The notes below the pieces were generated by a model. It did no database searches and was not told the DNA's origin. It saw only the letters and a list, made by a program, of their open reading frames with translations. DNA of 64,000 nt from Acinetobacter sp. WCHAc010034 (GTDB lineage Bacteria; Pseudomonadota; Gammaproteobacteria; Pseudomonadales; Moraxellaceae), in the NCBI RefSeq assembly GCF_001696615.3, contig NZ_CP032279.1:248001-312000 (forward strand). The letters run 5' to 3'. This document shows positions 44,956 to 48,438 of this stretch, piece by piece. The position numbers and the translations under genes were made by a program. Every line of letters starts with the position of its first letter. Positions within the stretch are counted from its first letter, which is position 1.

Positions 44956-45387
44956 ATGACCACCGTTGCTCAAGTATTACAGGACAAACCGCAGCAAGCC
45001 GTATATACCATTGCGCCGGATGCAACGGTATTGGAAGCGATCTCCCTGATGGCGGAAAAAGGCATAGGCGCCCTGATTGTGACGCAGGAAGATGCAGTTG
45101 TTGGGATTCTGTCCGAGCGCGACTACACGCGCAAAGTTGCGCTGATGGAGCGCTCTTCTTTCAGCACAACAGTCAATGAAATTATGACCGCAAAAGTGCT
45201 GACCATCACCCGCTCAGCCACTGTTGAAGACTGTCTGGAACTGATGACAGACAAGCATTTGCGCCATCTGCCTATTGTTGAAAAGAACAAGCTGATTGGC
45301 CTAATCTCTATTGGCGACTTAGTCAAAGCCGCCATGGAAGACCAGAAGAAGCTGATTGACCAGCTGCAGCAGTATATTTCCGGATGA
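44956..45387 (+). CDS. Tandem CBS-domain protein
   Basis: 143 residues composed of two CBS motifs: the first about 10-70 (ATVLEAISLMAEKGIGALIVTQEDAVVGILSERDYTRK), the second about 76-135 (TRSATVEDCLELMTDKHLRHLPIVEKNKLIGLISIGDLVKA). The Bateman pair usually binds adenine nucleotides and senses energy state. As a stand-alone protein the output is unknown. AAGGG precedes the start and a terminator follows. Confidence 0.93.
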   Translation: MTTVAQVLQDKPQQAVYTIAPDATVLEAISLMAEKGIGALIVTQEDAVVGILSERDYTRKVALMERSSFSTTVNEIMTAKVLTITRSATVEDCLELMTDKHLRHLPIVEKNKLIGLISIGDLVKAAMEDQKKLIDQLQQYISG

Positions 45388-45394
45388 TGCTTTC

Positions 45395-45424
45395 AGCCCT
45401 TTACATCGCTAAAGGGCTTTAATT
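45395..45424 (+). terminator. Terminator of the CBS-domain gene
   Basis: Perfect 8-bp stem AGCCCTTT/AAAGGGCT (45395-45402 with 45411-45418) and a short T run. Confidence 0.8.
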
Positions 45425-45503
45425 TATACACAAAATCCACAATGTAATGACAATGAAATTGCTTTTGCATTCCAGCTTCAACTCATTTACAGCATCAAAG
45501 CCG

Positions 45504-45571
45504 TATAGCGCAAATCACTAATAGCCAGCTCGCAAAAAAATCCCAGCAGAACGCTGGGATTTTCCTAAACG
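45504..45571. repeat. 68-bp direct repeat, copy A (contains terminator hairpin)
   Basis: Aligns without gaps to 47144-47211 with 60 of 68 positions identical. It includes an A7 run and a stem-loop (TCCCAGC...GCTGGGA) that would terminate leftward transcription. The two copies flank the IS110 element and its immediate surroundings. Confidence 0.85.
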
Positions 45572-45639
45572 ACTCCGCAAAAAGAACCTTAACTTCCAGC
45601 CTCCTAGGCCTTTGAGCAATATAAACTTCGGATACGCGA

Positions 45640-45740
45640 GTGCGGCATGGATGCCGCACGTTGCCCATCCTTGCGCTGCATTTTAAAGCAGTGCTTAAAA
45701 CTGGCTCAGGACGCCGTGTATGGGCAACAAAAGACTTTTG
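45640..45740. other. Densely palindromic left flank of the insertion sequence
   Basis: Three perfect inverted repeats in 100 bp: GTGCGGCAT/ATGCCGCAC (45640-45648, 45651-45659), GTTGCCCAT/ATGGGCAAC (45660-45668, 45720-45728) enclosing a further stem, and CAAAAG/CTTTTG (45728-45733, 45735-45740). It looks like a repetitive extragenic palindromic element or a structured RNA. It lies outside the inferred IS left end. Confidence 0.55.
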
Positions 45741-45759
45741 CTACTTGTATCTTAACTCA

Positions 45760-45925
45760 CATAGTGATTAGCTCTCACTATACGCAAACAGCAGAGTTTG
45801 GTTGTTTACTAAAACTTAAAGTTTGACCCAAAGATAAAACCTGCTGTTTGCCCTGACCGCCTGCACAACTCTGGACGGTAACTAAGCACCTCGATGCTGG
45901 ATTCGCAAGAAAAGACGGCGGTTAT
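45760..45925 (+). ncRNA. Candidate IS110 bridge RNA
   Basis: Noncoding segment between the IS left end and the transposase with the three-part architecture known for IS621 bridge RNA. There is a 5' stem-loop (45761-45767 with 45775-45781, perfect 7 bp), a 68-nt stem-loop closed by a perfect 11-bp stem (45784-45794 with 45841-45851), and a 69-nt stem-loop closed by 7 bp with one wobble (45855-45861 with 45917-45923). The loop of the second holds UUUACU and CCCAAAG as target-guide candidates; the loop of the third holds GACGGUAACU and GCAAG as donor-guide candidates. Identification is by structure and guide matches; expression is untested. Confidence 0.72.
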
Positions 45926-45964
45926 GCTGAAAAAAATAATTGAATAAATAAGGCAGGTAAGATT

Positions 45965-46954
45965 ATGTTTTATCTCGGTATTGATGTTGCCAAAGCTAAA
46001 ATTGACTGCTGTCTGATTTTAGAAGATTCTGCAGGCAAAAAGAAAACCAAAACCTTTCCGAATACGCCCAAAGGCTTTGAGCAGCTTCAGGCCTGGCTGA
46101 ATCATCATGCTGCAGGCCCTGCGCAGACCATCGCCTTAATGGAAGCCACTTCTGTCTATCATGAACGCTTGGCTGGATATTTATTTGATGCAGGCTGTCG
46201 AGTCTGTGTGGCGAATCCCGCCAGAGCCCGGTATTTTGCTCAGAGCATGTCCAGGCTGAATAAGACAGACAAAGCTGACAGTGAAGTTCTGGCCCGGTTT
46301 GCGATGACTGCTGATCTGCATTTTTGGCAGCCTCTGCCCGGACATATTCAACTGCTGAACGCTTTGCTGGATCGAAGGGCTGTGCTTGGTGAAGATCTGC
46401 AGCGTGAAGAAAACCGTCTGGAAAAAGCGGAGTCTGCCTTCACGATAGAACCGGTACTTCAGTCAACCCATAAGAATATTAAGCAGTTAAGCAGGCACAT
46501 TCAGGATCTCGACCGGCAGATTGATGGCCACATTGATCAGAATCCTGATTTAAAAAATGACAAGGCGCTGCTCAGCAGTATTCCGGCCATTGCAGACCGG
46601 ACAAGTTTATTAATGCTCAGCTTCTTGCGCAGCCATGCTTTTGAAAGGGCAAGCCAGGCGGCCGCCTTTGCCGGCCTGGTGCCCATTCAAAGGCAGTCGG
46701 GCAGCTCCATTCACGGCAGGAGCCGCCTATCCAAAGCCGGCTCTTCGAAAATACGCGCCGGCTTATATATGGCGGCCATTGTCGCAACCCGGCATAATCC
46801 CCACATAAAGGGGATGAATGACAGGCTGCTGGCCAATGGCAAAACCAAGATGATGGCGGTTGGCGCTGCGATGAGGAAGCTGATTCATCTGTGTTATGGC
46901 GTACTCAAGCACCAGCGGCCTTATCAGGAGAATTATTGCGCAAATTCTCAATAA
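45965..46954 (+). CDS. IS110-family transposase (bridge recombinase)
   Basis: 329 residues. The N-terminal RuvC-like DEDD domain has Asp7 (YLGIDVAKAK), Glu60 (IALMEATSVY) and Asp102/Asp105 (NKTDKADSEVLA). A helical linker (about 135-200) leads to the C-terminal Tnp20 domain: LLSSIPAIADRTSLLM, AFAGLVPIQRQSGSSIHGRSRLSKAGSSKIRAGLYMAA, with the nucleophilic serine expected in the SGSS segment (about 245-248). All catalytic residues are present, so the protein looks active. The start follows an AGGCAGGTAAG sequence. This family cuts at both ends via a Ser-linked intermediate guided by a bridge RNA. Confidence 0.95.
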   Translation: MFYLGIDVAKAKIDCCLILEDSAGKKKTKTFPNTPKGFEQLQAWLNHHAAGPAQTIALMEATSVYHERLAGYLFDAGCRVCVANPARARYFAQSMSRLNKTDKADSEVLARFAMTADLHFWQPLPGHIQLLNALLDRRAVLGEDLQREENRLEKAESAFTIEPVLQSTHKNIKQLSRHIQDLDRQIDGHIDQNPDLKNDKALLSSIPAIADRTSLLMLSFLRSHAFERASQAAAFAGLVPIQRQSGSSIHGRSRLSKAGSSKIRAGLYMAAIVATRHNPHIKGMNDRLLANGKTKMMAVGAAMRKLIHLCYGVLKHQRPYQENYCANSQ

Positions 46955-47143
46955 TCCTCTTGACGCCTGAGACGGTATCTTTGGGGCTTTCCAAAGTAAG
47001 ATCTTGCCTGCGCAAAGGCATTGAAACTTTTAAAGCAAAAATGAGGCAGTGCAAGCATCATCGTTAAAATTGCCGAAATAGTTAACTCGACTAAAATCCA
47101 GAGCAATCATATTTTATGCGCAATACAGACTTTAGCATTTAGC

Positions 47144-47211
47144 TATAGCGCAAATCATCAATAACCCACCCGCAAAAAAATCCCAGCGGAACGCCGGGAT
47201 TTTCCTAAACG
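47144..47211. repeat. 68-bp direct repeat, copy B (trpB terminator)
   Basis: Same length as copy A at 45504-45571, with 8 substitutions and no gaps. On the minus strand its hairpin (47181-47188 / 47192-47199) and T7 run terminate trpB. Confidence 0.85.
47174..47204 (-). terminator. Terminator of trpB (minus strand)
   Basis: 8-bp GC-rich stem with one wobble or mismatch, and a T7 run on the minus strand, 26 bp past the trpB stop. Lies inside repeat copy B. Confidence 0.8.
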
Positions 47212-47229
47212 CTTAAAGCGCTTGCAGAT

Positions 47230-48438
47230 TTAGTTCAGGCCCAGTTTGGCTGCCACATAATCCGCATCCTTATCGCCGCGGCCAGAAACATTCACCACAA
47301 CTTTAACGTCTTTTGAAAGTTTCGGTGCTTCGCGCAATGCCCATGCCACCGCATGCGAGCTTTCCAGCGCCGGCACAATCCCTTCCACACGCGACAAGGT
47401 CATGAAGGCATCCAGACATTCCTGATCGGTTGCCGTAGTGTATTCCACACGGCCTAAATCCTTCAATAAGCTGTGCTGCGGGCCTACCCCCGGATAGTCC
47501 AGGCCGGAAGCAATTGAATGCACCGGCAAAGGCTCGCCCTGCTCATCTTCCAGCACATAGCAGGCCATGCCGTGAATTTGGCTAGGCTTGCCCAAAGTCA
47601 GCGTTGCAGAATGCATATCTGTATCCAGGCCATGCCCGGCAGGCTCAACGCCAATCAGCTTCACATCCGCATCATTTAAAAAGGCCGTAAATGCGCCCAG
47701 CGCATTTGAACCGCCGCCGACGCAGGCCACCACATAGTCCGGATTGGCGCCAAAGCGCGCATTGGCCTGAACTTTAATTTCATCGCCAATAATCGCCTGA
47801 AAATCCCGCACCATCATTGGGAATGGATGCGGGCCAACCACTGAACCGATGGCGTAGATAAAGTTTTGCGGATCTTTCAGGTATTCTTCAAAGGCGCTGT
47901 CTACCGCATCCTTCAAGGTGGCCGTGCCGCGGGTGACTGCTATCAGCTTTGCACCCAGGATTTTCATTTTTACGACGTTAGGATGCTCTTTTTCAATATC
48001 CACCTGGCCCATATGAATTTCACACGGAATGCCCACCAAAGCGCAGGCAGTCGCCAAGGCCACGCCATGCTGGCCCGCGCCGGTTTCCGCAATAACCTTG
48101 GTTTTACCCATGTACTTTGCCAGCAAAGCCTCGCCCAGGCAGTGATTGATTTTATGCGCACCCGTGTGGTTCAAGTCTTCACGCTTTAAATAGATTTGCG
48201 CGCCGCCCAGCTGCTCAGACAAACGCTTTGCATAAAACAGCGGGCTTGGACGGCCGACATAGTTCGCAAACAGATCTTTCAGCTCATTTTGAAATTCCGC
48301 CGTGTGGCGGATCTGCTCATAAGCCGTGTTAATGTCATCCATCGCCTGCTTTAAATCCGGCGGAATAAATTGGCCGCCATAGGCGCCAAAAAAGCCTTCT
48401 TCATTGGGCAATGCAATGCCATTAATCTGATGATCCAT
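47230..48438 (-). CDS. trpB: Tryptophan synthase beta chain
   Basis: Condenses indole and serine to tryptophan; PLP enzyme. 402 residues. The PLP-lysine motif [21 protein letters not shown] (about 85-105), [11 protein letters not shown] (about 118-128), the phosphate-binding [10 protein letters not shown] (about 237-246), GVGPQHSLL and the C-terminal [10 protein letters not shown] are intact. trpA does not follow it here: the downstream side ends in a terminator and then the IS110 region. Its upstream neighbour is a VWA-domain gene 50 bp away, so transcription may start within or before that gene. Confidence 0.98.

Follow-up and report, generated by a model that had tools for sequence, protein, structure and literature searches.

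The window, by which we mean the whole stretch of 64,000 nucleotides analysed, contains at 45744-46980 on the forward strand an intact insertion sequence of the IS110 group that runs from core CT (45744-45745) to core CT (46979-46980). It carries one gene for an IS110-family recombinase of 329 amino acids (45965-46954, forward strand), and it interrupts a chromosomal repeat whose left arm (45623-45745) and right arm (46979-47056) are both read on the forward strand, with outer limits that are approximate. The noncoding DNA is distributed unevenly, with 221 bases ahead of the ATG at 45965, counted from 45744, and 26 bases past the stop codon. A long noncoding region 5' of the gene and a short one 3' is the layout of the IS110 group. 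The IS1111 group was considered and rejected, since only 26 bases lie 3' of the gene and the RNA region lies 5'. Inside the element (45744-46980) there are 22 inverted pairs of at least 8 nt, and none of these repeats links both termini, which fits the IS110 group.

The recombinase scores above the cut-off for both Pfam PF01548 (DEDD_Tnp_IS110) and PF02371 (Transposase_20), and it is matched by NCBIfam NF033542, 'IS110 family RNA-guided transposase'. By sequence its nearest solved proteins are ISCro4 (E 5.1e-60) and IS621 (E 7.5e-59), and no other solved relatives were found. In the alignment to these two proteins, the RuvC-like DEDD residues are D7, E60, D102 and D105 and the Tnp serine is S245; they align with D11, E60, D102, D105 and S241 of IS621 (the numbering of the solved IS621 chain runs two higher than these residue names), which excerpts of PMC11208158 describe as essential. 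The first-pass annotation had called an intact DEDD/Ser transposase, and the 329-aa frame with all five IS621 catalytic residues bears this out. Among the relatives, a single internal TGA had marked several genes as broken, a reading that we rejected: in L022, L023, L024 and L050, the ones translated, it is the natural stop at codon 325. One further relative, L088, does contain two additional stops, and some 1.2 kb of other DNA separates its left end from the rest.

The ends at 45744 and 46980 had originally been derived from the guide matches themselves. Seven other full copies in the same genome, 96-97% identical to the window copy, have identical ends, so that the comparison of termini, set beforehand, came out in agreement for all seven; the right end reads GACGGTAT-CT in all eight full copies. 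In other genomes, the DNA match spans bases 1 to 1237 exactly at no fewer than eight places in five genomes of the genus, with unrelated flanks; the matches to more distant relatives are fragmented, and here too the outermost positions are 1 and 1237. As for the empty junction predicted earlier, TTTTGCTA-CT-TTGGGGCTTT, it was found one base off, as TTTTGCTA-CT-TTGGGTCTTT, at 2826940+ in the same genome; the empty sites used here are other copies of the repeat in this genome, rather than the window locus in another strain. Given the eight same-genome copies, the 16 uninterrupted targets and the differing flanks of the relatives, the circularity between guides and ends is removed. The eight copies, 96-100% identical including the window copy itself, lie in eight places and interrupt the repeat at one and the same point. 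Since the other copies diverge from the window copy by 3-4%, they make no case for recent movement.

Among 175 genomes of the genus, which include the window genome, DNA similarity of some length was seen in 28, and 18 contain a protein hit at E <= 1e-60. The DNA scan scored no more than two candidates per genome, which makes its copy numbers minimum values. Relatives were also present in 24 phage records, all distant and below 60% identity, and three plasmid records carry an 84% identical copy annotated as an IS110 family transposase. One truncated copy in the window genome (L009 / L087, G000:C13:1264462-1264975) consists of the 3' part of the element, followed by CTTTGGGTC and then by short tandem repeats.

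The noncoding left end folds on the forward strand into a 5' stem-loop of 7 bp (45761-45781), a target-binding stem-loop (45784-45851) and a donor-binding stem-loop (45854-45924), which recovers the three stem-loops 5' of the transposase, in an IS621-like layout, where they had been placed by reading the sequence. The fold of 45758-45935 has a minimum free energy of -48.4 kcal/mol against a shuffle mean of -37.2 (z -2.9), and one of 200 shuffles was as good. For comparison among relatives, we aligned 21 distinct sequences, L031 being omitted since the RNA is repeated in its left flank. The stems are paired in 87.0% of cells, against 35.5-47.0% when partners were slid by 1-3 columns, a comparison in which the structure is the centroid of the fold of the window's own RNA, one of the aligned sequences, and which therefore somewhat favours it. 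Changes on both sides were seen at 26 of 51 pairs, whereas 500 shuffles gave a mean of 11.8 and none as high a count. They fall at 5 of 7 pairs in the 5' stem-loop, at 10 of 18 in the outer and 3 of 5 in the inner helix of the target-binding stem-loop, and at 4 of 8 in helix 4, 3 of 6 in helix 6 and 1 of 7 in helix 5 of the donor-binding stem-loop; covariation support is weak for helix 5, the inner donor-loop helix, and for the innermost target-loop pairs. Further standard pair types numbered 42 against a shuffle mean of 38.4, with 41 of 500 shuffles as high, which is not clearly above expectation. A search of 45000-47500 against Rfam at E <= 1 returned no bridge RNA family, and its sole match, to a CRISPR-repeat family (46993-47027; 20.3 bits, cut-off 39), lies outside the element.

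Both predicted guides of the donor loop fit the ends of the element. The left donor guide GGACGGTAACT (45873-45883, forward strand) matches the right end GACGGTATCT (46971-46980), with the 9 of 10 positions that the first-pass annotation had counted, and the right donor guide TTCGCAAG (45902-45909, forward strand) would pair with the left end CTTGT. The GCAAG/CTTGT pairing, also proposed earlier, contains one wobble; ACAAG, the exact complement of CTTGT, is present in 18 of 22 distinct RNA regions, and the four exceptions all come from the window genome. Guides and ends are both nearly invariant among the relatives used.

In the target loop, the right guide GACCCAAAG (45825-45833, forward strand) is complementary to CTTTGGG(TC), and the CCCAAAG read earlier is indeed the exact complement of the right flank CTTTGGG. 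The left guide GTTGTTTACT (45801-45810, forward strand) presents a more mixed picture: the guide and the left flank share an unbroken TACT as claimed, but the match is otherwise poor, with an edit distance of 2 over 7 non-core bases. The sister sites L002 and L004, at which TTGTTTACT stands to the left of the element, fit this guide better than the flank of the window copy does.

We then compared guides with flanks across relatives, both being readable for 36 of 42 elements; the six rows left out are L067, L068 and L080 (left end unrecognised), L088 and L027 (no guide read) and L082 (right end outside the stretch read). Core included, the right guides match their own flanks at 6.54 of 9 positions against 4.60 when permuted (24 distinct pairs), and the left guides at 7.13 of 10 against 4.79 (23 distinct pairs); with the core removed, the right guides score 4.54 of 7 (permuted 2.60) and the left guides 5.39 of 8 (permuted 3.05). 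None of 20000 permutations was as high for either side, with or without the core, in a set of pairs that includes many related sequences, a left guide misread from unrelated sequence (L079) and the type-B left guide shifted by one base. With hand-chosen representatives and these two left guides corrected, the true pairing outscores every other permutation, of 40320 for eight right guides and of 5040 for seven left guides from five lineages. The reverse complements of the right guides, as found at their own right flanks, are CTTTGGG, CTCTTTCA, CTCAAACC, CTCAGGT, CTTTCGGA, CTAAAAAGC, CTACAAT and CTAACATC. The element's own guide class is the best or joint best ungapped match in 33 of 36 elements, the exceptions being the window copy (L001), L008 and L072. 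Right guides fit less well in a group of 18 copies that is 55% identical to the window copy, where 1 to 5 of the 7 non-core bases agree with the flank and L034 has just 1; in L034 and L061 of this group, the guide GAATG instead of GAGTG goes with the flank CAATG instead of CAGTG. Since relatives share the same ends in different flanks and their guides change together with those flanks, the observed matches go beyond chance. The comparison thus supports a target loop that would pair with the target and that co-varies with the flanks across lineages, with L001, L008, L072 and the 55%-identical group as noted exceptions.

The target itself is one stem of a repeat, about 180 bases long and dispersed in the genome, that has several conserved hairpins, and insertion of the element breaks the outer part of this stem. 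The first-pass annotation had read the insertion site from the guides, and the element does sit at the matching flanks, but the dispersed hairpin repeat had been missed, as had the better fit of the left guide at some sister sites and the co-variation of guides with targets among relatives. Its arms at the window locus have the same sequence as at other copies and empty sites, and the right arm starts with the hairpin CTTTGGGGCTTTCCAAAG. Searched in the window genome with up to 2 mismatches, the hairpin pattern gave 24 sites, eight occupied and 16 empty, and the reversed control pattern gave no match under the same conditions. At 15 of the 16 empty sites the flanks share a single CT at their junction, compared with one CT at each end of the element, and the sixteenth reads TT. 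The 3-4 bases outside CTTTGG are complementary across the stem in 14 of the 16 and not in the other two, and the stem bases at this position vary by site (TTA, CGA, CTC, CTA, CCA, TCA and TTC). As seen in the two arms in the window and in the 16 empty sites among L121-L144, some copies of the repeat contain an internal insert of about 32 bases, and by eye the outer flanks are of two kinds. Across the genus, the 18-base hairpin is found with at most 1 mismatch in 19 of 175 genomes, with 23 matches in the window genome; G156 has 36, G075 has two and 16 others have one each, the single matches being candidate repeat copies only; the reversed control gave one match in the 175 genomes, in G100.

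The occupied and empty sites of the window genome also differ at the bases that the left guide would contact. Seven of the own-genome copies carry the left guide GTTGTTTACT, and all seven sit at TA-CT sites, compared with 4 of the 16 empty sites (Fisher one-sided p = 0.0013, or p = 0.0019 without the one empty site that lacks CT), a comparison chosen post hoc after the data had been seen. The eighth copy, L008 (G000:C13:3270499-3271841), which is 96% identical overall to the window copy, carries the left target guide GTTGCTCCT and has one donor-guide base changed (GGACAGTAACT). Its site is of the TTC-CT type. TTGCTC, the six bases of its guide outside the core, has an exact match at an empty CTC-CT site (1198826-). 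Against its own left flank, the L008 guide matches at only 3 of 8 positions without gaps; with gaps, this flank lies at distance 1 from its own guide and 2 from the main guide. The left flank of the window copy conversely lies, with gaps, at distance 2 from its own guide and 1 from the L008-type guide, and so its left match is weaker than its right one. By the ungapped score, neither of these two copies is best suited to its own site.

Taken together, we consider it about 95% probable that this is an autonomous IS110 element guided by a bridge RNA into a dispersed hairpin repeat. This reading is directly supported, as far as sequence comparison reaches, by the ends, the uninterrupted targets, the RNA covariation, the co-change of guides and targets and the conserved catalytic residues; expression and length of the RNA, complex formation, the circle, the chemistry and present activity are extrapolated from IS621. 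By that analogy, the noncoding left end would make a bridge RNA of about 165-180 nt, to which the recombinase would bind. The donor loop would pair with the joined ends of a circular intermediate (GACGGTAT-CT from the right, CT-TGTATC from the left) and the target loop with chromosomal TTGTTTA-CT-TTGGG(T/G)C. Strand exchange at the CT core, dependent on the serine and the DEDD residues, would then insert the element with nothing lost. As the target lies in one stem of a dispersed multi-hairpin repeat, the element would spread among copies of the repeat.

Some of these observations might be explained without guided insertion. Homologous recombination or duplication of occupied repeats could have placed the eight copies, which would then simply have inherited their guide matches. 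The repeats are mutually homologous, so gene conversion between them is possible, and the other copies are 96-97% identical to the window copy, with none identical; yet the repeat-arm bases and outer flanks vary among the eight, the site subtype tracks the guide in the seven main-guide copies, and relatives sit in flanks unrelated to the repeat that nevertheless match their own guides, all of which makes this explanation very unlikely. The structured left end might also serve purely as a cis-acting leader or small RNA that regulates the transposase, given that regulatory small RNAs are reported for the REP-targeting ISPpu9 (in the part of PMC8450116 consulted). Such a role leaves unexplained both the co-change of loop and flank and the fit between donor loop and element ends, and we regard it as highly improbable in this exclusive form.

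Lowest of all we rate recognition of the hairpin repeat by the recombinase protein, with the RNA playing no part in specificity, to which we give almost no credence. In its favour, the target is palindromic and conserved, as protein-binding sites commonly are. Against this, the A- and B-type recombinases, 83-87% identical to that of the window, use unrelated targets that match their altered RNA loops, and the specificity of IS621 is set by its RNA, as excerpts of PMC11208160 describe.

RNA-guided insertion by an IS110 element remains our preferred reading, and among its closest known parallels is IS621 of E. coli. As portrayed in the portions of PMC11208160 consulted, IS621 likewise has its RNA 5' of the gene, with a 5' stem-loop followed by the target and then the donor loop, a left guide that pairs with the bottom strand, a right guide that pairs with the top strand, and a CT core. 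It also shares the DEDD and serine residues and targets chromosomal REP repeats (PMC11208160; structures in PMC11208158 and 8wt6, again in part). Guides, target and host are different, and the right target guide matches 7 bases in the window copy compared with 4 bp in IS621 (7 with the extended guide) in the same partial account. ISCro4 (9t56) is the top sequence match among solved structures, a likeness that comes from the protein alone. The seekRNA systems ISEc21, ISEc11 and ISXne4 also take a guide RNA from a noncoding end, but four of the five elements in that study are of IS1111 type with the RNA region 3' of the gene, unlike the window element; the passages available from it further report natural reprogramming between the related elements ISEc11 and ISXne4, and REP targeting by ISPa11 (PMC11187229). 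Insertion into dispersed extragenic palindromes is likewise described for ISPpu9, ISPpu10, ISPa11 and ISPsy8 (excerpts of PMC1525189). In contrast to their REP targets, the window target is a larger multi-hairpin repeat, and only 3 of the 175 genus genomes have its 18-base hairpin, with at most 1 mismatch, in more than one place.

RNA-guided insertion, described in 2024, REP-type targets, the action of an RNA in trans in an engineered assay and natural reprogramming are therefore already published, as the sections consulted of PMC11208160, PMC11187229 and PMC1525189 attest. The word Acinetobacter is absent from the main texts of PMC11208160 and PMC11187229, whose supplements may list this element or a near relative. 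The genome offers a natural experiment, with eight occupied and 16 empty targets whose subtypes differ at guide-contacting bases, which permits direct scoring of mismatch tolerance and site choice by the bridge RNA. Moreover, recombinases of 83-87% identity to that of the window use two further unrelated targets and those of 46-57% identity use others, which provides ready-made pairs of guide and target.

Two relatives depart from the general pattern and suggest trans use and self-targeting, both testable. L072 (G110:C6; also L146) carries the guide of type B, and its ends resemble those of L028 as far as the core. Of the 15 non-core bases of its site, however, 13 match the type-A guide and 5 the type-B guide, and the type-A element L022 lies in the same genome. 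L031 (G149:C9, about 1869149) directly follows the left part of another copy, which is cut exactly at the CT of the left target guide and lacks its first few bases. From these we tentatively propose, as a possibility that we consider rather doubtful, that specificity can be changed or shared in nature by routes other than guide mutation: a bridge RNA acting in trans (L072), and left-guide DNA used as a target and followed by recombination (L031), with one case each. If the trans reading were true, L072 would be a natural instance of what excerpts of PMC11208160 report for an expressed bridge RNA in an engineered assay. L072 may instead have been produced by homologous recombination, an origin that needs, at either end, a crossover inside a run of about 10-11 identical bases. 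By eye, L072 also adjoins open-frame pieces that resemble a broken transposase gene.
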